Of a stretch of DNA of 64,000 nt, positions 2,345-63,915 are shown piece after piece. Position numbers and translations under genes: made by a program. The notes beneath the pieces were generated by a model, which was given only the letters and a program-made list of their open reading frames with translations, searched no databases and was not told where the DNA came from. Each line of letters opens with the position of its first letter. Within the stretch, counting starts at the first letter, position 1. Source of the stretch: Corynebacterium freneyi (lineage in GTDB: Bacteria > Actinomycetota > Actinomycetes > Mycobacteriales > Mycobacteriaceae); contig NZ_CP047357.1 in NCBI RefSeq assembly GCF_030408835.1, positions 744,001-808,000 on the forward strand. The letters are read 5' to 3'.

Positions 2345-2466
2345 GCTTTACGACGCCCACCGGGTCGCACAGGAGTCTTCACGGCGAAGGGCCTTGGGCT
2401 TTACGACGCCCACCGGGTCGTGCAGGAGCCGCCACGGTGAAAGGGATGGGGTAGGCGTCGTCAAGC
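2345..2466. repeat. 53-bp-period direct repeat carrying three copies of the GCTT(T/G)(A/G)CGACG word
   Basis: Bases 2345-2391 recur at 2398-2444 with about eight differences. Both copies begin with GCTTTACGACG followed by CCCACCGGGTCG. A third word, in the opposite orientation (CGTCGTCAAGC), sits at 2456-2466. The stretch lies between the copD/ctaG terminator and the ssb promoter and has no convincing ORF. It is the densest cluster of the 11-base word in the window. Confidence 0.8.
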
Positions 2467-2480
2467 GGAAAAATCCGGGG

Positions 2481-2519
2481 CCTGTGGATAAGCCCCATAA
2501 TCTGCGATTCATCCACAGG
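2481..2519. promoter_or_regulatory. inverted pair of DnaA boxes around a -10 box upstream of ssb
   Basis: The 9-bp arms CCTGTGGAT (2481-2489) and ATCCACAGG (2511-2519) are perfect inverted copies. The left arm contains a consensus DnaA box (TTATCCACA on the minus strand, 2483-2491). The right arm contains TCATCCACA (2509-2517), one base off. Between them CATAAT at 2496-2501 is a plausible -10 box for ssb, whose ATG is at 2626. The arrangement suggests DnaA binding on both sides of the promoter. Confidence 0.55.
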
Positions 2520-2625
2520 CCGTCGAAACGGCGGTGGTGGCCGGCGGGCGAAGGCGGCATCGTCGGACGTGCGAGGCCCGGAACGACCAGCGCTCCGGGG
2601 ACCACGACACGAAGGGGGACTCGCA

Positions 2626-3165
2626 ATGTCCGAGATCAAGGTGACCATCGTCGGCAACATCACCAAGAAGCCGGAGATCAAGACCACCGCCAACGGCAAG
2701 CTGGTGACTCGCCTGCGCGTCGCATCGACCCGCAAGCGCCACATCGACGGCCAGTGGGTCGACGGCGACACCGCGTACATCGACGCCGAATGCTGGGACC
2801 GCCTGGCGCAAAACGCGGTGAACACGTTCGCCAAGGGCGACCGCATCATCGCCGAAGGGCGCCTGTGCACCGTCGAATGGCAGGACGACGAAGGCAAAAC
2901 CAAGTCGTACACCAAGGTCATCGCCGATTCCGTCGGCCCCGACCTGCGCTTCGCCACCGCGGCGATCACCCGCATCAAGGGCGGGTCGTCGCGCGCCGCG
3001 GAGGCCGAGCGCCGCGCCCGCGAGGCCGAGGAAACCGAACAGCGCATGGTCCACGACCAGGGCGTCGTCCCCAACGAAACCAACCACTTCGACGAGTCCG
3101 TGCAGCGCGACGACGCCGGCGGCGCATACGGGACGGAGGCGGAGATGGCCCAGATGGTCTCGTAG
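2626..3165 (+). CDS. ssb: single-stranded DNA-binding protein paralogue
   Basis: A 179-residue OB-fold protein. The start MSEIKVTIVGNITKKPEIK is the usual SSB N-terminus, and the ATG follows a purine-rich GAAGGGGGA. The OB fold occupies about residues 1-115 (AYIDAECWDRLAQNA, FAKGDRIIAEGRL). The tail is acidic and charged but ends AEMAQMVS, without the acidic DDDIPF-type tip that recruits partner proteins to the main replicative SSB. It therefore looks like a second, non-essential SSB paralogue of the kind actinobacteria carry. The DnaA-box pair upstream hints at replication-linked control. Confidence 0.9.
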   Translation: MSEIKVTIVGNITKKPEIKTTANGKLVTRLRVASTRKRHIDGQWVDGDTAYIDAECWDRLAQNAVNTFAKGDRIIAEGRLCTVEWQDDEGKTKSYTKVIADSVGPDLRFATAAITRIKGGSSRAAEAERRAREAEETEQRMVHDQGVVPNETNHFDESVQRDDAGGAYGTEAEMAQMVS

Positions 3166-3177
3166 CCGGTCGGGGCG

Positions 3178-3272
3178 CTCGTCGGGGAAGTGCGCGGGCC
3201 GCCATCGGGGAAGTGCGCTCGGGGTGCCGTCGGAGAAGTTCGCTCGGGCCGCCCGTCGGGGAAGTTGCCGCC
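3178..3272. repeat. imperfect ~25-bp tandem repeats between ssb and ettA
   Basis: The phrase (G/A)TCGG(G/A)GAAGT(G/T)CGC followed by GGGCCGCC-like spacing recurs four times immediately after the ssb stop codon. The copies are degenerate and have no ribosome binding site or clear frame. Confidence 0.5.
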
Positions 3273-3280
3273 GCTACCGG

Positions 3281-3286
3281 TAAGGT
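3281..3286 (+). promoter_or_regulatory. -10 box (TAAGGT) of ettA
   Basis: TAAGGT lies about 135 nt before ettA and 8 nt before the ATG of a 29-codon ORF. This implies a leader of roughly 125 nt. Confidence 0.45.
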
Positions 3287-5186: not shown

Positions 5187-5269
5187 GGCGGGTGGTGCGG
5201 CGTCGAAAAGCCGCCCGGCGGGTGGTGCGGCGTCGAAAAGCCGCCCGGCGGGTGGTGCGGCGTCGAACG
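5187..5269. repeat. 30-bp tandem repeat, 2.8 copies
   Basis: A unit beginning GGCGGGTGGTGCGGCGTCGA repeats with a 30-bp period at 5187, 5217 and 5247. The first two copies are identical. It lies in the leader of the thioesterase gene. The reading frame of that gene is open through the repeat, but the SD and ATG lie downstream. Confidence 0.85.
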
Positions 5270-5838: not shown

Positions 5839-6766
5839 CGCCGGTGCCCGGGGCGGTTCCGGGGCGTCGACGGGTGGGGCGTCGAATGGTGGGGCGTCGG
5901 CGGGCGGGGAGTCTCTCGTCGTCCATGACGTCGCGGCGCTGACCAATCTCGGCGTCCTCGCCCGTAAGGCGGTGGCGCTGGATGCGCAGGCGTTGATCCG
6001 GGTTCGTGCGCTTCCCGCGGGGTCGCCGGATGACCTGGTCGCGGCGTCTCGGCCGGCCGGCGTTGCGCGTGTGTGGGCGACCACTCCCTTTGGGCCGGTG
6101 GCGTGCCGCACGATGGCCATCAGCCCGGGGCGCGGTGGTCGCGATGATGTCGTCGTTCGGGCTGATGCTGTGTCCGCCGTCACGGGTGACGCCCGGTCGG
6201 TGCCGCAGATCGATGCCGCCGTGCCGATGACGTTGGAGTGCGGTGCCGCCGCCGATTCTTCGTGGCCGGGCAGTGTGCCGGTGGACGGTGGGTGGACCGT
6301 CGTCGATGCCGTGCCGGCGGGCGTCTTCCGCGACTTGGAGACGCAGGCGAGGGGAGTGGCCAAGGAAGAATCGGGCCCGTTGGGCTTGCCGACGTCGCTG
6401 CTCGACCAGAAGGTCCTCACCGTCCGCGGTGCCCGTCTCGCCGATACTTCGGGGAATGAGGGCGGCCTGACTGCTGGTGCTGCCGGGCGTGAACGTGGCG
6501 CGACTGCTGCTGCCGGGCGTGAACGTGGCGCGACTGCTGCTGCCGGGCGTGAACGTGGCGCGACTGCTGCTGCCGGGCGTGAAGTTGGCCCGGTCGCCGA
6601 GATTTCCATGCGCGAGGTGTTCGCCTTGTGTGCCATGGGCTTCATCCCGGTCAAGCCCTCCACCGATGAGCCCGTGCGGGTGTCGGTGAAGGGGCGTTGG
6701 CGTCGACTCGATGGGCGATTCGGAAGCGTCTACGCCTCCGAAGGGCTTGGGGTTCTGCCGTTGTAG
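5831..6766 (+). CDS. conserved corynebacterial protein of unknown function with decapeptide repeats
   Basis: A 311-residue protein overlapping the thioesterase stop codon. I do not recognise a characterised family. The N-terminus is a Gly/Ser/Ala linker with GAS repeats. Residues about 25-205 form a compact domain (SLVVHDVAALTNLGVLARKA onward). Then come three identical decapeptides of the form AAGRERGATA plus a partial fourth (about residues 217-252), and a C-terminal segment ending at 6766. There is no signal peptide or membrane segment. Gene order suggests a functional link to the thioesterase or EttA, but nothing more can be said. Confidence 0.65.
   Translation: MSDAGARGGSGASTGGASNGGASAGGESLVVHDVAALTNLGVLARKAVALDAQALIRVRALPAGSPDDLVAASRPAGVARVWATTPFGPVACRTMAISPGRGGRDDVVVRADAVSAVTGDARSVPQIDAAVPMTLECGAAADSSWPGSVPVDGGWTVVDAVPAGVFRDLETQARGVAKEESGPLGLPTSLLDQKVLTVRGARLADTSGNEGGLTAGAAGRERGATAAAGRERGATAAAGRERGATAAAGREVGPVAEISMREVFALCAMGFIPVKPSTDEPVRVSVKGRWRRLDGRFGSVYASEGLGVLPL
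6471..6588. repeat. 30-bp in-frame tandem repeat inside the unknown protein gene
   Basis: Three identical 30-bp units start at 6481, 6511 and 6541. A partial fourth unit begins at 6571 and a degenerate lead-in precedes the first. Perfect identity implies recent expansion and probable copy-number variation between strains. Confidence 0.9.
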
Positions 6767-7866: not shown

Positions 7867-10614
7867 CTACTGCTCCGGGACGTACCCGTCGCACTCGCGG
7901 GCGGCCAACGCCCGCTCGACGCGGTCACGGTTCTCCGCGACGATGCGCTTGACGGGGTTGGGCACCGAGGCGTCGTCAAGCACCGCCGAAGCCTTGTCCA
8001 GTCCCTCCTGCGAGACCTCCCAGTGCGGGTACAGGCCATCGAGCATCCGCTGCGCCGTCTCCGAGGAATACCGGCCCCACCAGGACGGAGCCTCGGCGAA
8101 GTACCGGTCGGTGAAGTCGCCGAGCAACCCATCCGAACCGGGCGCGGTGAAACCGGCGATCATCGACCGCAACATCAGATTCGACGGGGCGGCGGCCCCG
8201 GTGGCGGTGCAGGTGTTCCACACGCGGATCTTGTTGTCCGCCGCCGGGATCGCCGCACGCGCCTTCGCCGCAGCCTGCGTCCCCAGCGCCGACTGGTCGG
8301 CCTGCTCGGCCGCCGCGATATCGGACACCCCCTTGTCGCCGGCGGCGACGAGCACGGTCAGCGCGTTCCACTTCATGTCCTCGTCGACGGTCAGCCCGTC
8401 CAGGCCGACCGACCCGGGCTCGCCGGCGAGGATCGCGCGGAAGATCTCGAGCGAACCGGCGCCGTCGGCCGGCAGCATGGCCAGGGCGTTGACGAACGCC
8501 AACTGGGCGTCGGACCCGGCCTCCGCGGCGCGGGCGTGATCGAGCAGCCCCTCGCCGAGCAGGCGACGCCCCTCGGCGACCCAATCGGGCGCGGCGTACC
8601 GCTCGACGGCCGCCACCGCCTGCGACAAAACACGCTCGAGCACCGAAATCTGATCCTCCGACGGCGCGCCCCGCAGCACCATGGCCACGAAATCGCGGGC
8701 GCGGACCTTCGCCGCACGGGTCATCTCCCACATCGTCGACCACGCCAGGGTGCGCGGCATCGGATCGGCGAAGGCGCCGATGTTCTCCAGCAGGAACAGC
8801 CACGACCCGGGATCCATCTCCATGAAGCAGTAGCTCAGGTCGTCGTCGTTGGCCAGGACGACGTCGCCGACGGGCACGCCCGACATCTCGGGAACCTCGG
8901 TGATCTCGCCCTTGACGTCGACCTCGACGCGGTGGGTGCGGCGCAGCAGTCCGCCGTCCATCGCGTACACGCCGATGGCCACGCGGTGGTCGCGCAGCTC
9001 GCCCGCCCCGGGCTCGGCGCCGGTCTGGCGGATGGCGAAAATGTCGTAGACCTCGGCGGCGCCACCCTCGGCAGCGTCCCCGGCACCATCCCCGGCGGCG
9101 CCACCCTCGGCCTTCTTCGTGGAGTAGGCCGCCGACAGGGTGTTGATGCCGGTGGTGGTCAGCCACTGGTCGGCCCACCCGGACAGGTCGCGGCCGGACG
9201 CCTCGGACAGGGCGCCGAGCAGGTCGTCGAAGGTGGCGTTGCCGAAGCGGTGGCGGGCGAAGTGCAGGCGGGCGCCGGCGAGGAACGCGTCTTCGCCGAC
9301 GTAGGCCACGAGCTGCTTGAGCACGGAGGCGCCCTTGGCGTAGGTGATGCCGTCGAAGTTCTGGTCGACGGTGTCGATGTCGGAGGCGTCGGCGGCGATG
9401 GGGTGCGTCGACGGCAGCTGGTCCTGCTGGTAGGCCCATGCCTTTTCGACGTTGGCGAAGGTGGTCCAGGCGCCGTCGTATTCGCTGACGGCGGCCTGCG
9501 ATGCGCAGGCGGACCAGGTGGCGAAGGATTCGTTGAGCCACAGGTCGTCCCACCATTGCATGGTCACGAGGTCGCCGAACCACATGTGGGCCATTTCGTG
9601 GAGGATGGTTTCGTTGCGGCGTTCGTACAGGTAGCCGGTGGTGCGGGAGCGGAAGACGTATTCGTCGCGGATGGTGACGGCGCCGGCGTTTTCCATTGCG
9701 CCCATGTTGTATTCGGGGCAGAAGATCTGGTCGTACTTGCCGAAGGGGTAGGGCTCGCCGAAGTTGGCCGCGTACCAGTCGAAGCCTTCCTTGGTTTCGC
9801 GGAAGAGCCGTTCGGCGTCGAGGTGTTCGGCGATGGAGGCGCGGCAGTACAGGCCCAGGGGGATGGTCAGCTCACCGTCGGGCTGGTGGTCGGCGGGGGT
9901 TTCGGGGTGCTTTGCGACGGTGCCGGTCCATTGGTCGCGGACCTCGTGCCAGGGGCCGGCGCAGAATGCGATGAGGTAGGTGGACAGGGGCACGTCGACG
10001 CGGAAGCGGTGGATGCGGGCGGCGGGGCCGTCGAGGGGCGCGATGTCGCCGTCGGCGGGGGCGATGTCGGCTACTTCGGGTTCGGAGTTGGACACGATGG
10101 TCCAGTCGCCGGGTGCGGTGACGTCCATCGTGTAGGTGGCCTTGAGGTCCGGCTGGTCGAAGCAGGCGAAGACGCGTTTGGCGTCGGCGGTTTCGAACTG
10201 GGAGTAGAGGTAGGTCTGTTCGTCGGCGGGGTCGGTGAAGCGGTGGAGGCCTTCGCCGGTGGTGGTGTAGCGGCAGTCCGCGTCGACGACGACCACGTGG
10301 TCGCCTGCGGTGAGATCGAGGATGAGGCCGCGTTCGTCGTCGTAAAGCTCCTTCGACCCGCCGCAGGCGGCGTCGGTGACGTCCGTGCCATCGATGGTGA
10401 CGGAGCGGATGTCGGCGTTGCGGAGGTCGAGGAAGGTGGTGCCGTCCCGCTTCGCGGTCAGCGTCACGGTGGTGGTCGAACGGAAGGTGTCGTCGCCCGG
10501 GGCGGCGGTGGTGCCGGGGGCGCCGGTGACGTCGAGGGAGATGTCGTAGTGGGACACCTCGAGCATGGCCGCGCGGTCGGCGGCCTCGGTCTGCGTCAGG
10601 TTCGTGGAAGTCAT
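7867..10614 (-). CDS. pepN: aminopeptidase N (M1 family zinc metallopeptidase)
   Basis: A 915-residue cytoplasmic M1 aminopeptidase. The substrate-binding GAMEN motif is at 305-309. The zinc motif HEMAH is at 339-343 with the third ligand Glu in WLNES near 361, and a catalytic Tyr region lies downstream. The C-terminal half is the helical ERAP1-like domain (about 540-900). It removes N-terminal residues from peptides produced by Clp and other proteases. The start is the ATG at 10614, 6 nt after a TACCCT -10 box. The frame continues open far upstream, but only over the SMI1 gene on the other strand. Three copies of the 11-base word lie within it (7971, 9909, 10338). Confidence 0.95.
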   Translation of the reverse strand: MTSTNLTQTEAADRAAMLEVSHYDISLDVTGAPGTTAAPGDDTFRSTTTVTLTAKRDGTTFLDLRNADIRSVTIDGTDVTDAACGGSKELYDDERGLILDLTAGDHVVVVDADCRYTTTGEGLHRFTDPADEQTYLYSQFETADAKRVFACFDQPDLKATYTMDVTAPGDWTIVSNSEPEVADIAPADGDIAPLDGPAARIHRFRVDVPLSTYLIAFCAGPWHEVRDQWTGTVAKHPETPADHQPDGELTIPLGLYCRASIAEHLDAERLFRETKEGFDWYAANFGEPYPFGKYDQIFCPEYNMGAMENAGAVTIRDEYVFRSRTTGYLYERRNETILHEMAHMWFGDLVTMQWWDDLWLNESFATWSACASQAAVSEYDGAWTTFANVEKAWAYQQDQLPSTHPIAADASDIDTVDQNFDGITYAKGASVLKQLVAYVGEDAFLAGARLHFARHRFGNATFDDLLGALSEASGRDLSGWADQWLTTTGINTLSAAYSTKKAEGGAAGDGAGDAAEGGAAEVYDIFAIRQTGAEPGAGELRDHRVAIGVYAMDGGLLRRTHRVEVDVKGEITEVPEMSGVPVGDVVLANDDDLSYCFMEMDPGSWLFLLENIGAFADPMPRTLAWSTMWEMTRAAKVRARDFVAMVLRGAPSEDQISVLERVLSQAVAAVERYAAPDWVAEGRRLLGEGLLDHARAAEAGSDAQLAFVNALAMLPADGAGSLEIFRAILAGEPGSVGLDGLTVDEDMKWNALTVLVAAGDKGVSDIAAAEQADQSALGTQAAAKARAAIPAADNKIRVWNTCTATGAAAPSNLMLRSMIAGFTAPGSDGLLGDFTDRYFAEAPSWWGRYSSETAQRMLDGLYPHWEVSQEGLDKASAVLDDASVPNPVKRIVAENRDRVERALAARECDGYVPEQ

Positions 10615-10686: not shown

Positions 10687-11217
10687 ATGAATGAACTGAG
10701 CAATGATGCTGGCAAGGTCGATCGGGTCAACGCGGCGTGGGATCGGATCGAGGCAGTGCTTGACGACGATGCCCTGGGAGCCCCCGCAACGGAGGCGGAA
10801 CTGGACCAGCTGCAGGCCGACCTCGGTGTGACGCTGCCGGATTACGTGCGGGCGTCGTGGCTGCGGCACGGGTCGGTGGACGGCGAGCCGTGGGACGGTG
10901 GCTGGATCGCGGCGCCGGCGTCGATCCTGAACGACTACAAGCTGTGGACCAAGCTGCAGGCCGACGGCGAGTTCGACGACTTCGAAAACACCGACGGGGA
11001 GGGCGCCGACTCCGAGGGCAAGTGGTACCACGAGGCGTGGATCCCGCTGGTCATGGACTTCGGCGGAAACAACTACTGCCTGGACATGCGCTCGGGTCGC
11101 CTGGTGTCCATGGACCACGAGGTCGGTTCGGAGTTCCTGGACTACGCCGACTGGCCGGCGTACCTGGAGGCCGCCGCCGATTCGCTGGAGGCCACGGGGC
11201 TGCCCTTCCCCGAGTAG
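10687..11217 (+). CDS. SMI1/KNR4 family protein
   Basis: 176 residues. The pattern is typical of the SMI1/KNR4 (SUKH) superfamily: an N-terminal helix, then TEAELDQLQADLGVTLPDYVRASWLRHGS, written here as the segment from about residue 37 to 65. The core ends with WIPLVMDFGGNNYCLDM and GSEFLDYADW. Family members include immunity proteins to contact-dependent or polymorphic toxins and also cell-wall regulators. No toxin gene is adjacent here, so an immunity role is not supported by context. The gene is a divergent single unit facing away from pepN. Confidence 0.8.
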   Translation: MNELSNDAGKVDRVNAAWDRIEAVLDDDALGAPATEAELDQLQADLGVTLPDYVRASWLRHGSVDGEPWDGGWIAAPASILNDYKLWTKLQADGEFDDFENTDGEGADSEGKWYHEAWIPLVMDFGGNNYCLDMRSGRLVSMDHEVGSEFLDYADWPAYLEAAADSLEATGLPFPE

Positions 11218-11419: not shown

Positions 11420-12064
11420 GTGAGCACCCGAGACAAGGTCACCTTTTACTTCGACGTTTCCTGCCCGTTCTGCTGGATCACCTCCCGCTGGATCAAGGAA
11501 GTGGAGAAGGTCCGCGACATCGAGGTCGAGTGGAAGCCGATGAGCCTGTCGGTTCTCAACGAGGGCCGCGAGGAACTGCCGGAAGAGTACAAGTTCATGA
11601 TGGAGTGCAACTGGACTCCGGCGCGCCTGTTCAATGCGGTGTTCGACCAGGATGGTCAGGAGGCCGTCGACAAGCTCTACACGGCGCTGGGCACGAAGAT
11701 CCACGACGAGGACCGCATCGACCGTCACGCGCGCGTCGACGAGCCGGCCCACGCGTTCGATGAGTTGATCACCGAGGCCCTCGCGGAAGTCGGCCTACCG
11801 GAGGAGCGCCTGGCGCAGGCCCTGACCACGGATTTCGACGAGCTCATGCGCGACAACCACGCGGAGGCCATGAAGGAGGTCGGCGACGAGGTCGGCACCC
11901 CGGTGGTCAAGCTCGGCGACACCGCCTTCTTCGGCCCCGTGCTCACCCGCATTCCGCGCGGCGAGGAGGCCGGGAAGATCTTCGACGGCTCCATCCTGCT
12001 GGCCGGCTACCCGCACTTCTTCGAGCTGAAGCGGTCGCGCACCGAGAGCCCCCAGTTCGACTAA
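11420..12064 (+). CDS. DsbA-fold mycothiol-dependent nitroreductase-like protein (Rv2466c family)
   Basis: 214 residues with a thioredoxin fold and an inserted helical domain. The redox motif CPFC sits near residue 14 (FDVSCPFCWITSRW), and the cis-proline region VGTPVVKLG lies near 163. The Rv2466c family uses mycothiol as reductant and is linked to oxidative-stress response. There is no signal peptide, so it acts in the cytoplasm. GTG at 11420 follows AGGAGG with a 6-nt spacer, which fixes the start despite a longer open frame. Confidence 0.88.
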   Translation: MSTRDKVTFYFDVSCPFCWITSRWIKEVEKVRDIEVEWKPMSLSVLNEGREELPEEYKFMMECNWTPARLFNAVFDQDGQEAVDKLYTALGTKIHDEDRIDRHARVDEPAHAFDELITEALAEVGLPEERLAQALTTDFDELMRDNHAEAMKEVGDEVGTPVVKLGDTAFFGPVLTRIPRGEEAGKIFDGSILLAGYPHFFELKRSRTESPQFD

Positions 12065-12150: not shown

Positions 12151-13353
12151 TCAACGCTGCTCGACGGCCTCCGCGCTGGCGTCGACACCGCCGCCGGCGT
12201 CCGGGTGCCAGGCCGGCGGGACGTACACGCACGTCGGGTCGGAGGCACGGTAGTCGCCGGTCAGGGCGAACGCCGTCGACCGGGAACCGCCGCAGACATT
12301 GTGGAACCCGCAGACGCTGCACTTGCCGTGCCAGTTGTCCGGGTCGCGCAACTCCTTGAACACGGGCGACTCGGAGTAGATCTCCCGGAAATCCGTTTCC
12401 TTCACGTTGCCGCAGTGCAGCGGCAGGAAACCATTCGGGTAAACGTCGCCGATGTGGTCGATGAACGCGAAACCGGAACCCGAGTTCACCGCCATCGGCG
12501 ATCGCGGCGGGCGGGGCTTCGCCGGGTGCTCGCCGAGGAGCTCGGTGGTCTTGCGGGTCAGCTCGTCGTAAAGCGGCCCACCTTCGTACTTCGGGGCGCC
12601 GGTCTCCTCCGCCTCGCGCCGCTGCAGCACCACCCGCCGATACTGCGGCGCCTCCGTGGTCTTGATGGCGATGCGGTCGGAAACGTCGACCAACCAGTTG
12701 AGCACGTCCTCGCGCTCCTCCGGCGACAGGCAGTTGAGCGCCGCGCCGCGACCGGTGGGCACGAGGAAGAAGACGTACCACATCTTCGCCCCCATCTCGA
12801 TGACCTTCTTCATCAGGGCGGGGGCTTCGCCGATGTTGTCGCGGGTCAGCGTCGAATTGATCTGCAGGCGGTAGCCGGCCTCGTTGATCACCGGCGCCAT
12901 CTCGACGGTCTTTTCGAACGTGCCCGAAAAACCGCGGAACGCATCATGCGTCGTCGCGGTCGCACCATCGAGCGACATCGACATCGCCTTGCCGCCGGCG
13001 GCCCGCAGCGACCGGATGCGCTCCGGCGTCAACCGCGGCGTCACCGACGGCGACAGGGAAATGTTGAGACCCTTCGCCGTGCCGTACTCGGTCAGCTCCT
13101 CCAGATCGGCCCGCTCGAACGGGTCACCGCCGGTGAACACCACCAACGGCAGCGGTTTGTCGTACGACGACAACGCATCGAGCAGCCGCTTGCCCTCCTC
13201 CGTGGTCAGCTGATCCGGGTGGGGCTCATGCTGGGCGTCGGCCCGACAGTGCTTGCACACCAGGCCGCAGGCCCGCGTCACCTCCCAGATCACGATGAAC
13301 GGCTTCTGATTGATGTCGTGGCGGACGGTGCGGACTGCTGGGGGCCGATGCAC
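12151..13353 (-). CDS. radical SAM/SPASM protein (TIGR04053-like)
   Basis: 400 residues. The radical SAM 4Fe-4S motif is CGLVCKHC (about residues 30-37), followed by the glycine-rich FTGGDPF. A C-terminal SPASM-type cysteine set (HCGN, CSVCGFHNVCGG, then C in DPTCVYV) would bind auxiliary clusters. It resembles the AhbD/NirJ branch, whose characterised members modify haem or peptides; the substrate here is unknown. The start is GTG with GAGGAA a few bases upstream. TAAAGT on the minus strand at 13397-13402 is a plausible -10. No precursor-peptide gene is adjacent. Confidence 0.85.
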   Translation of the reverse strand: MHRPPAVRTVRHDINQKPFIVIWEVTRACGLVCKHCRADAQHEPHPDQLTTEEGKRLLDALSSYDKPLPLVVFTGGDPFERADLEELTEYGTAKGLNISLSPSVTPRLTPERIRSLRAAGGKAMSMSLDGATATTHDAFRGFSGTFEKTVEMAPVINEAGYRLQINSTLTRDNIGEAPALMKKVIEMGAKMWYVFFLVPTGRGAALNCLSPEEREDVLNWLVDVSDRIAIKTTEAPQYRRVVLQRREAEETGAPKYEGGPLYDELTRKTTELLGEHPAKPRPPRSPMAVNSGSGFAFIDHIGDVYPNGFLPLHCGNVKETDFREIYSESPVFKELRDPDNWHGKCSVCGFHNVCGGSRSTAFALTGDYRASDPTCVYVPPAWHPDAGGGVDASAEAVEQR

Positions 13354-15691: not shown

Positions 15692-15881
15692 GGTCCTAAC
15701 GTGATTTTTGTTCGGGGTACATCATCGACAACGGGCCGGGGCCGCGATTCGTTCCAGGGGGAGCGGATTTTTCCGCGAAAGATTCGGTTGTTTTACTCGG
15801 TTGCTTTACGACGATGCCGTCGACGCCCGGGACCCCGTAACGTTCTGTTTGAAAACCATGAATTCGACAGGTTGCGTGACA

Positions 15882-21067: not shown

Positions 21068-21132
21068 GCAGCTCAACCGGGGCGGCGGCATCGTCGTAAA
21101 GCGAAACGCGCCCCTACGTGAACGTGGGGGAA

Positions 21133-42495: not shown

Positions 42496-42545
42496 GCTTT
42501 GCGACGGCCGCCCCTGAGCCCAATGGCGAAAGCGCCCGGCGCCGC

Positions 42546-46909: not shown

Positions 46910-47033
46910 TCACCGACGATCCCGCTGCTCCCGTCCCCGGCTTCATCGTCGGCAAGCGGGACAGCCCCCGGATCTCAGACCCCAGTTCCAGTCCACATAC
47001 ATCCCCCGTTCCGACGACGAAACGAAAGGGCCC

Positions 47034-49308: not shown

Positions 49309-50607
49309 ATGACTGACGCGACCACTGACCAGACCATGACCGACGCCCGCGCCGCCGAGCGCGACGAAGTGCTGGACAAGGCCCGCCGCGCCAAGGCCGT
49401 TTCCCACGAGCTGGCGGGCTACACCTCCGAGCGGAAGAACCGGATTCTGCTGGCCGCCGCCGATGCGCTGGTGGAGCAGGCCGAGAAGATCCTCGAGGCC
49501 AACGAGCGCGACATCGAGGCCGGTCGCGAGCGGGGCCTGGCGGAGTCCCTCATCGACCGTCTGAAGCTTGACGACGATCGCATCCGGGGAATCGCCGGCG
49601 GTTTGCGCCAGGTCGCCGCTTTGCAGGATCCGGTGGGCGAGGTGCTGCGCGGGTCGACGTTGCCCAACGGCATCAAGATGTCGCAGGTCCGCGTGCCGCT
49701 GGGCGTGATGGGCATGGTGTACGAGGCCCGTCCGAACGTCACCGTCGACGCCTTCGGCCTGGCCCTGAAGTCCGGCAACGTCGCCCTGCTACGCGGGTCG
49801 AAGTCGGCCGTGAACTCCAACACCGCCCTGGTGGAGGTGCTGCGCGGCGTGCTCGCCGCCGATGGAGCTCCCGAGGATCTGGTGCAGCTGCTGCCGTGCG
49901 AGACCCACGATTCCGTCCAGGACCTGATCACCGCCCGCGGCCTGGTCGACGTGGTCATTCCGCGTGGCGGCGCCGGTCTCATCGAGGCCGTGGTCACCCG
50001 CGCCACGGTGCCGGCCATCGAGACCGGTACGGGCAACTGCCACCTCTACATCGACGGTTCCGCCGACGTCGACGAGGCCATCGCGTTGCTGATCAACGGC
50101 AAGACCCGCCGCTGCTCGGTGTGCAACGCCACCGAGGTCGTGCTGCTGGATTCCGCCCTTGGCGAGGAGAAGATCGGCAAGGTCCTCGACGCGCTGGTCG
50201 ACGCCGACGTGAAGGTCCACGGCGACGCCGACAATCTGCCGTGGGGCGGCGAGATCATCCCCGCCACCGACGAAGACTGGAACGACGAGTACCTGTCCTT
50301 CGACATCGCGGCGAAGGTCGTCGACGGCGTGGAGGCCGCCGCCGACCACATCAACGCACACGGCTCCGGCCACACCGAGGCGATTTCCGCGAAGGACTGG
50401 AACGCCTGCGAGACCTTCGTCGAGCGCGTCGACGCCTCCACGGTCAACGTCAACGCGTCGACCGCCTTCACCGACGGCGAGCAGTTCGGCATGGGCGCGG
50501 AGATCGGCATCTCCACCCAGAAGCTCCACGCCCGCGGCCCGATGGCCCTGCCGGAGCTGACGTCGACCAAGTGGATCCTGCGCGGCACCGGCCACACCCG
50601 CCCGTAG
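49309..50607 (+). CDS. proA: glutamate-5-semialdehyde dehydrogenase
   Basis: 432 residues of the gamma-glutamyl phosphate reductase family. The NADP-binding region is [20 protein letters not shown]. The catalytic Cys is in [15 protein letters not shown] (about 282), and the C-terminal [16 protein letters not shown] is conserved. It reduces glutamyl 5-phosphate in proline synthesis. It has its own promoter and is followed by a strong terminator. Confidence 0.96.
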
Positions 50608-52649: not shown

Positions 52650-53467
52650 CGCGTGCCGTCTGCTCCGCCCGTCGCGCCGAACCCGGCGTCGGCGAGGATT
52701 TCCCGACCCCAATCGGACAACACCGCGCGGATCCACATCTCCGCGTCGGAGAATCGCCGTCCGTCCTCGCCGGCGTCGGCGGTGACGGCGATGGGGTACT
52801 CGTTGACCGCCTCGTCGGCGCCGTCGATGTCGATGGCCTCCACGCCCTTCGCCGCGTTGGCATCGGTGCGATAGACGATGCCCGCGTCGGCCTGCCCCGC
52901 CTCGACCTTTCCACGCACGTCGGAGACCTTGGACTCCTCCGACACCGGCGAAATCTCGGTGCCGGTGGCGTCGAGGATCTTTTGCGTGGCGGCGCCGCAC
53001 GGCACCTCGGGGGCGCACACGACCAGCTTGGCGTCGTCAAGCGAATCGTCCAATCCCGTCACGCCGGCGGGATTGCCTTCGGGGACGATGAGCGTCAGCG
53101 TGTTCGTCGCGAACGTCTGCGGCGCACGCACCGCGCCGGCCTCCTCCGCACGCTCCATGGTGCGCAGGTCGGCGGTGGCCAGGACATCCGCGGGCGCGCC
53201 GGCCTGCAGCTGGTCGACCAGGTTCTGCGACCCGTCGAAGGAGAACACCACGTCGATGTCCGGGTTGTCTTCCTCGAACCGCCGCTCGATCTCCTCGAAG
53301 GTCTTCTGCAGCGACGCGGCGGCGAACACGGTCAACGTCCGCCGCTCACCGTCGTCGGCTCCGCCGCCCGAGCACGCGGTCAGGCCCGCGAGCCCCACCG
53401 CCGCGGTCGCGGCCGTCGCCCGGCGCACAACTCCGCGCCCCGTGGATTCACTTCGGTTGATTCCCAT
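52646..53467 (-). CDS. modA: molybdate-binding lipoprotein ModA
   Basis: 273 residues. The lipoprotein signal has AVGLAGLTAC (lipid Cys near 36). The periplasmic-binding fold starts LTVFAAASLQKTFEEI, with the oxyanion Ser residues in AASL and SFDGSQNLVDQLQAG typical of ModA. It captures molybdate outside the membrane and passes it to the fused ModBC, whose gene it overlaps. ATG at 53467 is chosen; the longer frame runs into the upstream gene. Confidence 0.93.
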   Translation of the reverse strand: MGINRSESTGRGVVRRATAATAAVGLAGLTACSGGGADDGERRTLTVFAAASLQKTFEEIERRFEEDNPDIDVVFSFDGSQNLVDQLQAGAPADVLATADLRTMERAEEAGAVRAPQTFATNTLTLIVPEGNPAGVTGLDDSLDDAKLVVCAPEVPCGAATQKILDATGTEISPVSEESKVSDVRGKVEAGQADAGIVYRTDANAAKGVEAIDIDGADEAVNEYPIAVTADAGEDGRRFSDAEMWIRAVLSDWGREILADAGFGATGGADGTR

Positions 53468-55058: not shown

Positions 55059-55792
55059 GATCTCGTCTCCTGATTGCTGACGGGGAAGGGGAGTTCCAGG
55101 GTGCCGACCAGCTCGGCCGGCGGTCCCGCGGTGACCAGCTTGAGGTAGCGTTCGCGCGTCTCCTCGTCGAGCGGGGGCAGCGCGGTGACCAGGGCGTCGA
55201 TGACGCCGGAGTAGGCGCTGCCACGGTCGGCGAGGGCGTGGCGCAGCACTTCGATGCCGTCGCGGTGGGTGGCCAGCACGTCGGCGGCGATGGCATCTCC
55301 GGTTTCGGGGCTGCCGGGTTCGCGGGCGGCGGCCTCGCACACGACGCACAGGTGGTCGGGCAGTTCGTCACGATCCTGCTCGAGGCCGACGGCGGCGAGC
55401 ATTTCGCGGAAACTCAGCAGGGCGACGCCGCGTTGCCGGGTGTCGCCGGTGGCGTAGTAGGACAGGTAAAGGTTGCAGCGGCGCTTCTGGTCGAAGGTGG
55501 CCACGTAGTGCTCTTCCAGGGCTCGCTTGCCGACGGCACGTGCATGGGCGATGAAGCCGGCGAGCGGGTCGGACGCTTCGAGGGGGAGGTCTGGCAGAAC
55601 CTGCGCGACCGCATCCCAGCGGGACTCTGCGTCGCCGCCGGGGTAGTCCAGCAGCGTGGCCGCCGCCATGAGCACGGTGCGCCGCTGGGCGTCGGTCATG
55701 GGCACGTGGGTCGGTTCGGCGACCTCAGTGGCGCGGGCCTGCTCCGCCGCGCGCCGCGCCGGGCGGCCCAGGAAATTCAACGCCATCGCCAT
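55055..55792 (-). CDS. narJ: nitrate reductase molybdenum-cofactor assembly chaperone
   Basis: 245 residues, all-helical, with the NarJ motif EEHYVATFDQKRRCNLYLSYYATGDTRQRG split here as EEHYVATFDQKRRC then LSYYATGDTRQRG. NarJ holds apo-NarG for cofactor insertion and is not part of the final enzyme. The start codon is ATG in TGATG with the narH stop; a GTG one codon earlier is possible. Confidence 0.94.
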   Translation of the reverse strand: MAMALNFLGRPARRAAEQARATEVAEPTHVPMTDAQRRTVLMAAATLLDYPGGDAESRWDAVAQVLPDLPLEASDPLAGFIAHARAVGKRALEEHYVATFDQKRRCNLYLSYYATGDTRQRGVALLSFREMLAAVGLEQDRDELPDHLCVVCEAAAREPGSPETGDAIAADVLATHRDGIEVLRHALADRGSAYSGVIDALVTALPPLDEETRERYLKLVTAGPPAELVGTLELPFPVSNQETRS

Positions 55793-57405
55793 CACCTCTT
55801 GGGGAACATGGAGTCGGGACGTTCGCCCGGGCTCCAGGAGGCCAGCGGCACGCGACCGGAACCGGCGGCGACGTCCTGCACGGGGACGCCGTGGAATTCG
55901 GCGGCGAGCGCTTCGGCGGACATGTTCGGGTCGTGCATGCCGGGGCCGCCGAAGTCGTCCAGGGAGCAGCCCATGGCGGCGATCCCCTCCGGGGTGGCGG
56001 CGGATTCGGAATGCGCGGTCGGGATGACGTAGCGCTCGTCATACTTTGCGATGGCCAGCAACCGGTACATGTCCTCGATGTCCTGCGGGGCCATGCCCAC
56101 GGCCGCCGCGATTTCCGGGTCGGGTTCCCGGCCGACGCGCACGTCGCGCATGAACGACCGCATCGCGGCGAGCTTGCGCAGCACCTTCTCCACCACCGCG
56201 GTATCGCCGGCGGTGAACAGCTCCGCCAGGTATTCCAGCGGGATGCGCATCGTGGCGATGGCGGTGTACAGCATCCGGTGTTCCTCGCCGTCGGCTCCCG
56301 ACGCGGTGACCGCGTCGACGACCGGGGACAGCGGCGGGATGTACCAGACCATCGGCAGCGTCCGGTACTCCGGGTGAATCGGCAACGCGACCTTGTACAC
56401 GCTGATCAACTTCCAGATCGGCGACTCCTGCGCCGCCGTGATCCACGACTCCGGCACTCCGCCGGCCCGTGCGCCCGCGATGACCTCCGGGTCATTCGGG
56501 TCCAGCAGGATGGAACGCTGCGCCTCGTAGAGATCCTGATCATTTTCCGTCGCGGCCACTTCGCCGACCCGGTCGGCGTCGTAAAGCAACACACCAAGGT
56601 ATCGGAGCCTGCCGACGCACGTCTCGGAACAGATCGTCGGCTCGCCGACCTCCAGGCGCGGATAGCACAGGGTGCACTTCTCGGCCTTGCCCGTGTGGTG
56701 GTTGAAGTACACCTTCTTGTACGGGCACCCGGAGACGCACATGCGCCAACCGCGGCACTTGTCCTGGTCGACCAGAACGATGCCATCCTCCGCGCGCTTG
56801 TACATCGCGCCCGACGGACACGACGCCACGCACGTCGGGTTGAGGCAGTGCTCGCAAATGCGCGGCAGATAGAACATGAAGGACTGCTCGATCTCGTGGC
56901 GGACCTTCTCGCCCATCTTCCGCAGCACCGGGTCGTCGTCCAGGATCTCCTGCGACCCGCCCAAATCGTCGTCCCAGTTCGACGACCACTCGATGGTGTC
57001 GATCGGCTTGCCGGACAACTGCGACACCGGCCGCGCCGTGGGCACGTGCTTCGAATCCTTCGGAGCCGACAGCAACTTGTCGTACTCGTAGGTCCACGGC
57101 TCGTAGTAGTCCGTCATCTCCGGCATGTCCGGGTTGGAGAAGATCGTGGCCAGCTTCTTCAGCCGCCCGCCGGCGCGGGGCACCACCTTACCGTTGGCTT
57201 TGCGGACCCACCCGCCCTTCCACTTCTCCTGGTCCTCCCACTGCTTGGGGTAACCGACGCCGGGACGCGTCTCGACGTTGTTGAACCAGACGTACTCGGT
57301 GCCCTCGCGGTTCGTCCACGTCTGCTTGCACGTGACCGAACAGGTGTGGCAGCCGATGCACTTGTCCAGGTTCATGACCATGGACAGCTGCGCCATGACC
57401 TTCAT
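55792..57405 (-). CDS. narH: respiratory nitrate reductase beta subunit
   Basis: 537 residues. Four cysteine groups ligate the iron-sulfur clusters: CIGCHTCSVTC near residue 16, CEHCLNPTCVASC near 183, CRGWRMCVSGC near 216 (the Trp-containing group of the 3Fe-4S type) and CTLCYPRLEVGEPTICSETC near 242. It conducts electrons from NarI haems to NarG. The ATG overlaps the narG stop by one base (TGATG), with GAGGTTGAG upstream. A copy of the 11-base word (56577) encodes LLYDADR. Confidence 0.96.
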   Translation of the reverse strand: MKVMAQLSMVMNLDKCIGCHTCSVTCKQTWTNREGTEYVWFNNVETRPGVGYPKQWEDQEKWKGGWVRKANGKVVPRAGGRLKKLATIFSNPDMPEMTDYYEPWTYEYDKLLSAPKDSKHVPTARPVSQLSGKPIDTIEWSSNWDDDLGGSQEILDDDPVLRKMGEKVRHEIEQSFMFYLPRICEHCLNPTCVASCPSGAMYKRAEDGIVLVDQDKCRGWRMCVSGCPYKKVYFNHHTGKAEKCTLCYPRLEVGEPTICSETCVGRLRYLGVLLYDADRVGEVAATENDQDLYEAQRSILLDPNDPEVIAGARAGGVPESWITAAQESPIWKLISVYKVALPIHPEYRTLPMVWYIPPLSPVVDAVTASGADGEEHRMLYTAIATMRIPLEYLAELFTAGDTAVVEKVLRKLAAMRSFMRDVRVGREPDPEIAAAVGMAPQDIEDMYRLLAIAKYDERYVIPTAHSESAATPEGIAAMGCSLDDFGGPGMHDPNMSAEALAAEFHGVPVQDVAAGSGRVPLASWSPGERPDSMFPKR

Positions 57406-60400
57406 CAGAACTCAACCTCCTGGGAGCGGCGGCGGATCACGGTGACCTCGTCGCGCTGGTTGCCGGTCGGGCCGGTGTAGTTGAACGCGTAGGAATGCTG
57501 GGCATAGCCGCCGATGAGGTGGGACGGCTTGATCAGGATCCGCGTCAGCGAATTGTGGATGCCGCCGCGCTTGCCGGACGTTTCCGCCACCGGCACGCCG
57601 ACGGTGCGTTCCTGGGCGTGGTGCATGTAGACCGTGCCCTCGGGGATGCGGTGGGAGACGACCGCGCGGGCGGCGATGACGCCGTTGCGGTTGTAGCCCT
57701 CGATCCATTCGTTGTCGGCGACGCCGATCTTTTCGGCGTCGGCGGGGGACATCCAGACGACCTGGCCGCCGCGCGACAGCGCCAGCATGTGCAGGTTGTC
57801 GAAGTATTGCGAGTGGATGGCCCACTTGTTGTGCGGCGTCAGGTACCGCACCGCCACTTCCGTCTGGCCCGCCCCGTTGACGCTGACCGTGCCGGGTGCG
57901 GCCTCGCCGTAGAGGTGGTGCAGGTCGAGCGGGGGACGGAACACCGGCAGGGCTTCGCCCATGTCGCGCATCCAGTCATGGTCCAGGTAGTAGTGCTGGC
58001 GGCCGGTGAGCGTGTGGAACGGCTTGAGCCGCTCGACGTTGATGACGAACGCCGAGTAGCGGCGGCCGCCGTGTTCCGAGCCGGACCATTCCGGCGAGGT
58101 GATCACCGGCACCGGGCGGGCGGAGACGTCCGCGAAGGTGATGCGCTTGCCGGCTTCCTCGGCCGACAGGTCGGCGAGTTCGACGCCGGTGCGCTTCTCC
58201 TGGTGCTTGAAGCCTTCCGTGGCCAGGCGGCCGTTGGTGGTGCCGGACAGGCGCAGGACCATTTCGGCGGCGCGGACGTCGGTGTCGATGCGAGGGCGGC
58301 CCTTGGCGGCGCCGCCGCGGGCGACGCCGTTGGTGTGCGCCAGTTCGCCGATTTCGCGGGTCGGGTCGAATGCGACGCCCTTGGTGGCCAGGCCGGCCTT
58401 CTCGGGCAGCGGACCGATGGCGTTGAACTTGTCGTACACGGCCGAGTAGTCGCGCTCCACCGGGATCAGCTTGGGCATGGTCACGCCCGGCACCTTCGGG
58501 GTTTCGGACCAGGGCTTGACGACGCCGTGAGGGGTCGCCATCTGGTCCGGCGAATCGTGGGACAGCGGTGCCGCGATGACGTCGGTTTGGGTGCCCAGAT
58601 GCGTGCGCGCCATCTCCGAGAACCGCTTGGCCAGATCCTGGAAGACCTGGAAGTCGGAGCGGGCCTCCCACGGCGGGTCGATGGCCGCGTTGAAGGCGTG
58701 GACGTAGGGGTGCATGTCCGTCGAGGACAGGTCGTTCTTCTCGTACCAGGTCGCCGCGGGCAGGACGATGTCCGAGTGCAGCGTGGTGGACGTGTTGCGG
58801 AAGTCCGCGGTCCACATCAGGTCGACCTTGCCGACGGCGGCTTCGTCGCGCCAGACCATTTCCTTCGGGCGACGATCGGCGGGGACTTCCTTGCCTTGCA
58901 CGGCGTTGTCGCAGCCGAGCATGTGGCGATAGAAGTACTCGGTGCCCTTGGCGGAGGAGCCCAGCAGGTTGGTGCGCCAGTTGGCGATGATGCGCGGGAA
59001 GTTCTCCGGGTTGCCGGGGTCTTCGATGGCGAACCGCAGGCGGCCCTCCTCGAGTTCCTTGATGATGTAGTCCTTCGGGGCCATCCCCGCGTCCGCGGCC
59101 TCCTGGCCCAGGGCCAGCGGGTTGCGGTCGAAGGTGGGGTAGGACGGCATCCAGCCGCGGCGCGTGGCCTCGACCAGGGTGTCCGCCGTGGTCTTGCCGG
59201 CGAAGGACCCTTCCTGCAGCGGTGAGCCGAGTCGCTCGGCGTCGGTGCCGTCGTAACGCCACTGTTCGGTGGTGGCGTACCAGAAGCCGGTGGAGATCAT
59301 CTGGCGCGGCGGGCGCTGCCAGTCCAGCGCGAACGCGTACTGCGCCCAGCCGGTGATCGGTCGGACCTTCTCCTGGCCGACGTAGTGCGCCCAGCCGCCG
59401 CCGTTGACGCCCTGGCAGCCGGTCATGGTGGTCAGCGCCAGGAACGTCCGGTAGATCGTGTCCGAGTGGTAGTAGTGGTTCGTTCCGGCGCCCATGACGA
59501 TCATGGACTTGCCCTCGGTTTCGACGGCGTTCCGGGCGAACTCGCGGCCGATGCGGATCGCCGCGTTGGCGGGCACGCCGGTGTGCTCCTCCTGCCACGC
59601 CGGGGTGCCCGGGGTGGAGGCGTCGTCGTAGTCGGCGGGCCACTCACCGGGCAGGCCCTCGCGGCCGACGGCGTAGCGGGCGAGCATCAGGTCGAACACG
59701 GTGGTCACCAGGTCGTCGCCGAGCTTGAACGCCGGCACGCCGCGAGACACCACACCCGCGCCGACGGGACCTTCCGGCGTCGACTCGCCGGGCAGGTCGA
59801 AGCGGGGCAGCAGAACCTCGACGGCTTCGGCCCCCTTCTTGCCCAGGGCGGTCATCGCCGGAGAGCAGTCGTCGAGGCGCAGATTCCACTTTCCTTCACC
59901 CGCCTCGCCCCAACGGTCCGCCATCGTTCCGCCGGGATCCTTGACCGTCCCGTCCTCGTCGAGGACCAGGGGGCGGAATTCCGCGTTGGCGGCGTCGTGA
60001 AGCGGATGATCGGCGGGCAGATCCGAGGCCGTGACGAACTTGCCCGGCACGTACGCCCCGTCGTGGGCGTTTAGCCGCACCAGGAACGGGGAGTCCGTGT
60101 AGCGCTTCATGTACTCCAGGAAGCGCGGCGTCTGCTGCTCGACGTGGAACTCCTTGAGTATGACGTGGCCCATCGCCAACGCCAGCGCACCGTCCGTGCC
60201 CGGGTGGACGCGCAGCCACTCGTCGGCGAACTTCGTGTTGTCCGCGTAGTCCGGCGACACCGCGACGACCTTCTGGCCGTGGTAGCGGGCCTCGGTCATG
60301 AAGTGCGCGTCGGGCGTGCGGGTCAGCGGGATGTTCGAGCCCCACATGATGAGGTAATCGGAGTTGAACCAGTCCGCCGACTCCGGGACGTCGGTCTGGT

Positions 60401-61139: not shown

Positions 61140-61255
61140 CGAAGACTCCTAGTCGGGTGAGGGGCAGGAGCGGTGGGCGGGGTGGTCGTCTTTGTGCTTT
61201 GCGACGGTGGGGGCTGGCCCCGTCGGGCGTGGTGGGGCATGGCGGCGTCCTTCGG

Positions 61256-62593: not shown

Positions 62594-62661
62594 GCGGGCC
62601 TCAATTCCGTGTTGGCGGAGATAACCGGTGCGCACGATTGCCGGCCCTCCGGCGCTTCTGA

Positions 62662-62677
62662 GTTGATTGCACTCACA
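62662..62677. promoter_or_regulatory. possible CRP/GlxR-type site upstream of narK
   Basis: On the minus strand the sequence reads TGTGA-N6-TCAAC, two bases from the TGTGA-N6-TCACA consensus used by GlxR. It lies about 70 bp before the narK ATG. The match is imperfect. Confidence 0.35.
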
Positions 62678-62770
62678 AATATCGTAACTTGGATGCGTAA
62701 ATTCGTCCAGATCAAAAGCGCAGGTCATTGGGTTATTTTCGCAACATGCGTGTTGTCGAATTGAAGGGCA

Positions 62771-62776
62771 TATGAT
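62771..62776 (+). promoter_or_regulatory. -10 box (TATGAT) of the moaB-like gene
   Basis: TATGAT ends 6 nt before the ATG of an 18-codon ORF at 62783. The moaB-like ATG follows at 62846. Confidence 0.55.
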
Positions 62777-62781
62777 CGAAA

Positions 62782-62905
62782 CATGGCCGATAAGGACATT
62801 GAAAGAAACATGGCCGACATGTCCGATGGGGAGCCTTAAGGAACCATGAACGATAGGAACGTTGAAAGAATCATGGCCGGCAAGGACGTTGAAATGAACG
62901 AAATG
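62782..62905 (+). repeat. 63-bp in-frame tandem duplication
   Basis: Bases from 62782 match those from 62845 at about 28 of 34 positions, with a 63-bp (21-codon) offset. Within each unit, a CATGGCCG-like subrepeat recurs 27 bp further on (62809 and 62872). Confidence 0.75.
62783..62839 (+). CDS. 18-codon leader ORF, duplicate of the moaB-like N-terminus
   Basis: The ORF MADKDIERNMADMSDGEP ends in TAA, 6 nt before and in the same frame as the next ATG. It is a 63-bp-offset copy of the DNA encoding MNDRNVERIMAGKDVEMN at the start of the following gene. The stop codon overlaps the next SD (TAAGGA), so translation could re-initiate. Confidence 0.5.
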   Translation: MADKDIERNMADMSDGEP

Positions 62906-63529
62906 CATTCCGCGCATTCGCAGAATTCGAATCGAACGGAGGGCGATGGTTCGCCCGCGTCGGGCGCGCACGGGAACTCGGGAAACGGGGCCGGTGCCGG
63001 TTCCGACGGGATCGTCGAAAAGCAGCTCGCGCCGATGGAGGGGGAGGTGCCGGGCGTGGTCATCACCGTCAGCGATCGTTGTGCCGCCGGTACTCGCCCC
63101 GACAAGTCCGGGCCGCGGGCCGTCGAGGCGCTCGCCGCGCATGGCGTCGTGTGCCCCGAGCCGGTCGTCGTGACCGATGACGTGCCGGAAATCCGCGCCG
63201 CCATCGAAACCGCCCTGAACGGGGGCGCCCGGCTCGTATTCACGACCGGCGGCACCGGCGTCACGCCCCGCGACAACACTCCGGAGGCGACCGAGCCGTT
63301 CGTGGCCACGCGGCTGCCGGGGCTGGAAACGCAGATCCTCAACCATGGGCTGACCAAGACGCCGTTGGCCGGCCTGTCGCGCGGCATCGTCGGCGTGACC
63401 GGGCGTGGCGGGGACGCGGCCGTGATCGTCAACGCGCCGGGCAGCTCCGGTGGCGTGCGCGACGCCATCGAGGTCATCGGCCCGCTGATGCCGCATCTGC
63501 TGGAGCAGCTCGGCGGCGGCGATCACTGA
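62846..63529 (+). CDS. MogA/MoaB-type molybdenum cofactor biosynthesis protein
   Basis: 227 residues. After a poorly conserved, Ser/Asn/Gly-rich N-terminal 65 residues comes the MoaB/Mog domain: VVITVSDRCAAGTRPDKSGP, VVTDDVPEIRAAI, and the molybdopterin-binding TTGGTGVTPRDNTPEAT. C-terminal LAGLSRGIVGVTGRGG completes the fold. It adenylates molybdopterin ahead of molybdate insertion. ATG at 62846 has TAAGGA at 5 nt. Divergent from narK, it shares the regulatory gap with the nitrate reductase cluster. Confidence 0.92.
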   Translation: MNDRNVERIMAGKDVEMNEMHSAHSQNSNRTEGDGSPASGAHGNSGNGAGAGSDGIVEKQLAPMEGEVPGVVITVSDRCAAGTRPDKSGPRAVEALAAHGVVCPEPVVVTDDVPEIRAAIETALNGGARLVFTTGGTGVTPRDNTPEATEPFVATRLPGLETQILNHGLTKTPLAGLSRGIVGVTGRGGDAAVIVNAPGSSGGVRDAIEVIGPLMPHLLEQLGGGDH

Positions 63530-63915
63530 AGCGCCGCTTTGCGACGGGCCGCCGACGGGTTCAGCGGTGGCGGATGTCCGCACCGTCGGGGCCCGTTTCC
63601 TGGGGGTGGCGGCTTGCTGGACGAGTCGGCGGTGGAGCGATGACTCGGGCGTTATCGCCGTGTGAATCGCCCAAAACGACTCATTGACCGTTTCTGAATG
63701 CGCAGGTCAGGGGTCCGTAGAGTTCGGCGGGGTGAGTCGTTTTGGGCGATTTGGCCGTCGATGGTTAGCGGTGGGGCTGGTGTGGCGCATTGTCTGCCCA
63801 TGGCGCGTCATCGTGGCCCGTCAGTCACGGGCCGACACGCAACCAACGCCCGTTCGGAACACGGCTAACGCACGGCCGGCACGCGGCCGAGGCGAGCGTC
63901 GGCGATCGGCTTTCG
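63530..63915. other. 386-bp gene-free interval
   Basis: It contains a copy of the 11-base word (63536-63546) just after the moaB-like stop codon and the palindromic element at 63665-63751. A 93-codon ORF (63684-63965) has no start signals and a composition typical of random high-GC frames, so I do not call it a gene. Confidence 0.6.
63665..63751. repeat. 19-bp perfect inverted repeat, 49-nt spacer
   Basis: AATCGCCCAAAACGACTCA (63665-63683) and its exact reverse complement (63733-63751) flank 49 nt. It has the same build as the element at 6959-7061: AT-richer arms, a short spacer, and a position between convergent genes. The sequences themselves differ. Confidence 0.75.

Follow-up and report, generated by a model that had tools for sequence, protein, structure and literature searches.

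A short, abundant DNA word with clade-specific spellings in Corynebacterium freneyi and its genus, a probable DNA uptake sequence

A stretch of 64,000 nucleotides of the genome of Corynebacterium freneyi (NCBI RefSeq assembly GCF_030408835.1, contig NZ_CP047357.1, positions 744,001 to 808,000 of the forward strand; this whole stretch is called the window here) contains numerous copies of a short word, which is better written GCTT-NN-CGACG, i.e., as nine fixed bases flanking two loose ones. We consider it probable that a naturally transformable corynebacterium uses this word as its DNA uptake sequence, read by ComEA/ComEC and a Flp/Tad pilus. The reading is based on the abundance of the word, its strand neutrality, its conservation and turnover, its dialects and their repeated change, and the presence of comEA, comEC and tad genes. 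On those sequence-level criteria that gave a clear answer, the word behaves like a DNA uptake sequence, and its over-representation is real and far above chance. The host is a Gram-positive bacterium with an outer mycolic layer. In the majority of the corynebacterial genomes studied, the word occurs in species-specific spellings and in copy numbers that range from hundreds to almost two thousand.

An earlier sequence-only reading of the window had listed 30 exact copies in three spellings, and all 30 were recovered at the same positions and on the same strands (9 of GCTTTACGACG, 8 of GCTTTGCGACG and 13 of GCTTGACGACG). With an order-5 Markov model derived from 400 kb of this genome, 0.97 copies of the three forms would be expected in the window; for the wider pattern GCTT[TGC]NCGACG the expectation was 3.36, compared with 46 copies observed. 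Order-6 models gave higher values, 4.5 and 7.2, respectively, because a model of this order starts to contain the word itself. The three forms are indeed the commonest, but they belong to a wider set. In a sample of 464 kb, consisting of the window and 20 further stretches of the genome, GCTTGACGACG occurred 75 times, GCTTTGCGACG 36 times and GCTTTACGACG 35 times; position 5 was T, G or C, with A in a single copy, and position 6 could be any base. One-base changes at the nine fixed positions were found in only 0–4 copies each, with the exceptions of the minor form GCGTGACGACG (31 copies) and of GCTCGACGACG (9 copies). Preferences in the flanks were weak (T immediately upstream, C at the second downstream base) and did not exceed 0.39 bits per position, and no conserved unit beyond about 15 bases was detected around the copies in this sample; the element is thus a word and not a longer repeat.

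In the complete genome of 2.88 Mb, GCTTNNCGACG was present in 1,720 copies, or 597 per Mb, compared with 119 for a control with the reversed pattern. The copies were distributed over both strands almost equally, with 861 in forward and 859 in reverse orientation, which extends to the whole genome the lack of strand bias claimed for the window (17 plus, 13 minus). Spacing between copies was near random (coefficient of variation 0.99). Half of the copies in the window had been described as intergenic, and 15 of the 30 do lie outside predicted genes, in the 13.7% of the window that these do not cover. In 451 kb of sampled DNA, genes contained 204 copies and intergenic DNA 64, with a further 6 located at edges; the densities were 1.22 per kb between genes and 0.51 per kb in genes. 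The comparison with codon- and Markov-based expectations, which the sequence-only reading had proposed, yielded an excess in both compartments: the 204 coding copies were set against a mean of 33.7 and a maximum of 44 in 50 rounds of synonymous-codon shuffling within each gene, and the 64 intergenic copies against 4.0 expected from an order-5 Markov model. The excess is therefore not an effect of codons or of proteins. The conclusion that the word is not a protein motif was borne out also by its peptide contexts, 178 of which were different among the 204 coding copies, and by the loss of most of the signal in synonymous shuffles. The copies had further been said to fall in different reading frames; this holds only in part, since 163 of the 204 share one phase (sense and antisense pooled), although their peptide contexts are diverse.

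For an estimate of conservation, the window was aligned with the syntenic regions of three relatives, which share 87% identity with it. Of its 46 sites, 28, 38 and 37 could be aligned, respectively, and 16, 21 and 22 of these still match the pattern. Random 11-mers keep the nine positions in 38–39% of cases in the same relatives. Further controls were non-motif positions matched for flank identity, and sites without full flanks were dropped; all nine fixed bases were then kept at 15 of 27, 19 of 35 and 19 of 34 sites, versus 5.2, 7.4 and 7.5 expected. The fixed bases are kept 2.5–2.9 times more often than in flank-matched controls. At the same time, the relative lacks the word at 41–45% of the aligned window sites, and, in the other direction, the window lacks it at 10 of 25, 8 of 28 and 9 of 30 aligned sites of the relatives. 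Copies come and go, as would be expected of a word maintained by drive.

Occurrence in the genus was determined by counting GCTTNNCGACG (the C dialect, ending in CGACG) and GCTTNNCGATG (the T dialect, ending in CGATG) in 242 genomes, with cut-offs chosen by us: at least 180 copies for C, at least 200 for T, and at least 100 of C or 150 of T for a weak class. By these definitions, 170 genomes belonged to the C dialect, with a median of 1,090 copies (range 195–1,964), 17 to the T dialect, with 211–1,337 copies, and 10 to the weak class; 45 had neither spelling. The T genomes had looked motif-free with a first pattern, GCTTKRCGACG, which was given up when word counts in 100-kb samples revealed the dialects. 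Three T genomes (G032, G156 and G185) possess only 211–223 copies. A single genome, G024, was high in both spellings, with 1,337 copies of CGATG and 352 of CGACG; perhaps it was caught in the middle of a dialect switch. The loose bases also differ between genomes, as seen in samples of the C. freneyi genome and of three other motif-rich ones: GA, TG and TA are preferred in C. freneyi, GC in G096 (18 of 23) and in G222, and TT and AT in G088.

Samples of 100 kb were taken from each of ten motif-poor genomes, nine of them motif-free and one weak (G131, G029, G011, G012, G207, G231, G241, G206, G018, G043). One of them, G012 (L267–L271), which is motif-free by the GCTT criterion, was the sole case with a private word, ATGACGYCGCG. 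This word has 644 copies in the genome of 2.03 Mb, versus 6 for its control, and at most 42 copies in any other of the 242 genomes. One-base variants of it are scarce, with 0–7 copies where the two spellings have 17 and 24; the first two positions are among the least constrained, and TG is often found immediately before the word. TGACG is common to this word and to the commonest spelling in C. freneyi, which may or may not reflect common descent. In the weak genome, G231 (L277–L281), TTCTCGACG was noted with 20 copies per 100 kb, where 4.1 were expected; possibly this is the word in a weak or decaying form. At the level of the family, 201 genomes were counted, of which 185 represent 30 other genera and 16 belong to the genus itself. 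Outside the genus the combined pattern was near the reversed control, with a typical ratio of about 1 and a highest value of 2.7 (G338); one genus (g22) was depleted in it. Among the 31 genera of the family, the word is enriched only in this one.

The history of the dialects was followed on a tree of one protein, Tex, with long branches, from 28 genomes (30 were asked; two returned another locus). Dialects cluster within clades, yet T is polyphyletic on this tree: the T clade G001/G143/G101 is sister, with full support, to the C clade G035/G105/G222, five changes are required between T and C, and a single clade of all T genomes was rejected (approximately unbiased test, p 0.0017). The CGATG spelling thus appears to have arisen or been lost repeatedly, as judged from a single gene. 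Raised numbers of CGATG (118–165, versus roughly 50 in many others) were seen in the C genomes G035, G085, G105, G180, G181, G201, G219–G222, G238 and G239; those of them which are on the tree (G035, G105, G222) are the sisters of the T clade, and the extra copies are possibly fossils of a former dialect.

The sequence-only reading had advised a search for com and pil genes, and ComEA, ComEC and a Flp/Tad locus were found in the genome of C. freneyi. The genes comEA and comEC are adjacent at 816,055–819,073, 8 kb to the right of the window. The tad locus lies at about 210–215 kb (L065:5810–10904, equal to G000:C1:209810–214904), with Pfam matches for TadA (T2SSE), two T2SSF proteins, a DUF4244 pilin and a TadE/G-like protein; between the latter two is a protein without a Pfam match, which was named TadE-like by its position. 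The TadE-like pilin of C. freneyi diverges from that of most of the genus, though its dialect is the common C form. One strong TadA was present per genome in the 77 genomes searched, and the Flp family was found in 29 of 30. A match of the size of ComEA occurred in 28 of 30 genomes in a search with PF12836, which mostly returned Tex; only the match in C. freneyi was confirmed by Pfam.

In the proposed mechanism, a surface component of the uptake machine would bind preferentially extracellular DNA which bears the word; the candidates for this component are ComEA and one of the minor pilins of the Flp/Tad pilus. The bound DNA would be drawn to ComEA, a single strand would pass through ComEC and would then be recombined into the chromosome. 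Uptake bias and recombination would together favour alleles that carry the word, and copies should consequently accumulate and be kept in both orientations. If the specificity of the receptor changed, the genome could slowly be rewritten to a new spelling, which would account for the dialects, i.e., CGACG, CGATG and the private ATGACGYCGCG of one species. The uptake preference, the receptor and the drive are the parts of this scheme that we infer.

Several results weigh against such an interpretation. ComEC is present in 241 of the 242 genomes and TadA in all 77 tested, including motif-free ones in both cases; a lack of either gene, which was considered as an explanation for the motif-free genomes, had to be dismissed. 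Presence of the machinery thus predicts nothing and lends no support to a function in uptake. Conversely, two genomes have the T word but no match of the size of ComEA: G128, with 625 copies, and G185, with 211 copies, which also lacks ComEC in an assembly that is 90% complete. A strong match to TadE (1e-16 or better) does count in favour of uptake, since it tracks the presence of the word in part: it was obtained in 177 of 187 motif-rich, in all 10 weak and in 10 of 45 motif-free genomes. This association, however, suffers from bias and confounding. Motif-rich genomes supplied 24 of the 26 sequences behind the model, the cut-off was chosen by us and is passed by all weak genomes, and many of the motif-free genomes may be close to one another in descent. 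With a biased model and related genomes counted as independent, the association is only a lead. No convincing alignment column separated C from T in Flp, TadE and TadF (41 genomes each, i.e., 15 T, 18 C and 8 motif-free) or in ComEA (22 genomes). The first column of the ComEA alignment splits the dialects fully, but it is the alignment edge, where stop-to-stop frames start, and was discarded; the best internal columns of TadE, with V in 13 and S in 12 of the 15 T genomes, follow relatedness and were likewise rejected. The intergenic excess was not seen in 100-kb samples of six other genomes, for which the purpose-written gene finder is unreliable (it called 18–32% of these samples intergenic). 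Close pairs, which are typical of Neisseria and Haemophilus (inverted pairs that act as terminators are a mark of uptake sequences), are few in C. freneyi, with 13 at less than 60 bp compared with about 10 expected from the mean spacing; nine of the 13 are inverted, too few to serve as a mainstay of the case for uptake, for which they had been considered. Finally, searches of the open-access literature, a coverage that leaves out most subscription journals and preprints, listed no paper describing natural transformation for this genus.

Among other explanations, a chromosome-organising site, or a binding site of a nucleoid protein, would have to be combined with a fast-evolving DNA-binding protein. 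The near-random spread over the genome and both strands, the conservation of core positions, the restriction of the enrichment to one genus out of 31, and the ISL3-type element in two out of the three longest inspected intervals without the motif (see below) are all in agreement with it. A mark essential for the cell, however, would not be expected to switch its spelling between sister clades, nor to be missing from 45 of 242 relatives (a different word is present in one of the 45); 41–45% turnover of aligned sites at 87% identity is difficult to reconcile with it as well, and nine fixed bases with scarce one-base neighbours are sharper than is usual for nucleoid proteins. Such a site is an unlikely explanation. 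More improbable still would be a site that a modification or defence system methylates or tags, over-represented since modified sites protect the host. The sharp specificity and the clade-specific spellings would suit a changing specificity subunit; on the other hand, the word is enriched 14-fold over its control, whereas restriction sites are usually avoided, its gap of two bases is shorter than those of type I sites, and the two loose positions are under some constraint, with A nearly absent from position 5 in C. freneyi. The sequence-only reading had left chromosome marks and methylation open beside uptake; both fare worse than an uptake sequence when the shift of spelling between sister clades is taken into account.

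A role as a recombination signal (Chi, for instance) or as a site for FtsK polarity could explain a very high copy number throughout the chromosome, but is rendered highly improbable by the equal numbers on the two strands overall; with the origin assumed at position 1, the sampled stretches gave 188 versus 158, and the skew of Chi or of the FtsK orienting polar sequences is far stronger. A remnant of a mobile repeat, e.g., a repetitive extragenic palindromic (REP) element or a miniature inverted-repeat transposable element, or of a protein repeat, would also be in keeping with the copy number and with some of the close inverted pairs. The REP-like alternative had been mentioned earlier; it did not hold, since there is no longer repeat unit around the word, and the weak flanks, together with the diversity of peptide contexts and the outcome of the synonymous shuffles, leave this origin with hardly any credibility.

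A DNA uptake sequence, our preferred interpretation, can be compared with the systems described in three papers. In Neisseriaceae, DNA uptake sequences (DUS) number about 900–6,000 copies per genome, with several dialects among relatives; one genome, that of S. muelleri, has two dialects, and five genomes were without an obvious DUS (PMC3630211). The corynebacterial word resembles the DUS, which is read by the minor pilin ComP, in being short, of high copy number and divided into dialects, with G024 as the counterpart of the genome with two dialects. It differs in sequence, phylum and pilus class (Flp/Tad here, classical type IV there), in its receptor, which is putative here, in its two loose internal positions, in the 45 of 242 genomes without both spellings, and in the polyphyly of the T dialect on one gene tree. 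The uptake signal sequences (USS) of Pasteurellaceae (Hin- and Apl-types) have a core of 9 bases, 200–800 copies per Mb and a predicted minor-pilin receptor, and occur in two main dialects with a common inner core (PMC12616744). Here, too, nine core bases and two main dialects were found, and 597 copies per Mb are within the range of the USS; sequence and phylum are different, the main dialects are distinguished by one of nine fixed bases, and the corynebacteria add one private word which looks unrelated. In Micrococcus luteus, also an actinobacterium, transformation requires Flp/Tad pili (tad genes) and comEA/comEC (PMC4322843). Genes of these classes are also present in C. freneyi; two tad clusters are required in M. 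luteus, compared with the one strong TadA per genome mentioned above. The terms "uptake sequence" and "sequence specific" are absent from the main text of that paper. In the accessible parts of three motif-survey papers, corynebacteria appear only in genome tables or in connection with clustered regularly interspaced short palindromic repeats, and no report of an uptake word in this genus was found in the open-access literature as delimited above.

The sites in the window can be given individually (coordinates within the window, strand in parentheses). GCTTTACGACG is outside predicted genes at 2345..2355 (+), 2398..2408 (+), 21092..21102 (-) and 26084..26094 (+), and in genes at 10338..10348 (-), 12564..12574 (-), 15803..15813 (+) and 56577..56587 (-). 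GCTTTGCGACG is found in genes at 9909..9919 (+), 17015..17025 (-) and 39704..39714 (-), and outside them at 22888..22898 (-), 42496..42506 (+), 61196..61206 (+) and 63536..63546 (+). For GCTTGACGACG, the copies at 2456..2466 (-), 45126..45136 (+) and 53032..53042 (-) are outside predicted genes, and those at 7971..7981 (-), 10758..10768 (+), 18103..18113 (+), 35741..35751 (+), 38267..38277 (+), 49566..49576 (+), 51047..51057 (-) and 58514..58524 (+) are in genes. Two inverted pairs, both outside predicted genes, complete the three forms: two copies of GCTTGACGACG (27329, +; 27352, -) at 27329..27362, with a spacing of 12 bp, and GCTTTACGACG (29521, -) with GCTTTGCGACG (29538, +) at 29521..29548, with a spacing of 6 bp. 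The minor form GCGTGACGACG is in genes at 34258..34268 (-), 43533..43543 (+) and 51728..51738 (+).

Eight further spellings had not been included in the earlier count. Outside predicted genes are GCTTTTCGACG at 5201..5211 (-) and 5231..5241 (-), GCTTGCCGACG at 6384..6394 (+) and 46947..46957 (-), GCTTCACGACG at 21248..21258 (+) and GCTTTCCGACG at 47570..47580 (+). Within genes are GCTTTTCGACG at 63013..63023 (-), GCTTGCCGACG at 55525..55535 (+), GCTTGTCGACG at 11665..11675 (-) and 32104..32114 (+), GCTTCACGACG at 38655..38665 (-) and 59993..60003 (-), GCTTGGCGACG at 25058..25068 (-) and 36623..36633 (-), GCTTCTCGACG at 43853..43863 (-) and GCTTCGCGACG at 52119..52129 (+).

With the GCGT form also counted, the two longest intervals free of the motif in the sampled C. 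freneyi DNA measured 12.2 kb and 6.9 kb, the latter cut off by the end of its stretch. Both hold the same ISL3-type transposase, in near-identical copies at L017:8716–10032 and L014:17765–19081; in the 12.2-kb interval it stands beside a cluster of ATP-binding cassette transporter genes. No transposase was recognized by eye among the predicted genes of a third interval (6.8 kb), and a stricter pattern yielded four further gaps of 7.1–8.2 kb. The intervals with ISL3 elements would fit, as an anecdotal observation, a word that resides in the recombining core of the genome. Another over-represented word was noticed in the sample of 464 kb, AAACCACGGG / CCCGTGGTTT, with 17 copies versus 0.9 expected.

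Self-recognition tags for DNA uptake have so far been known only in two families, those of Neisseria and Haemophilus. It appears reasonably likely to us that the corynebacterial word is a genus-wide uptake word read by a Flp/Tad pilus, the first outside these two proteobacterial families, and that its receptor was respecified many times, in one species even to the private word that looks unrelated, with dialects acting as recombination barriers between sister species. If this is correct, it would be the first such system outside Neisseriaceae and Pasteurellaceae, and a third, independent case, in Actinobacteria, would imply convergent evolution of specific DNA uptake, here on the basis of another kind of pilus. 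Many corynebacteria would then be predicted to be naturally transformable, now or formerly, and barriers to gene exchange between their species would be explained. The several natural dialect switches could be used for finding the receptor and for testing why uptake words accumulate.

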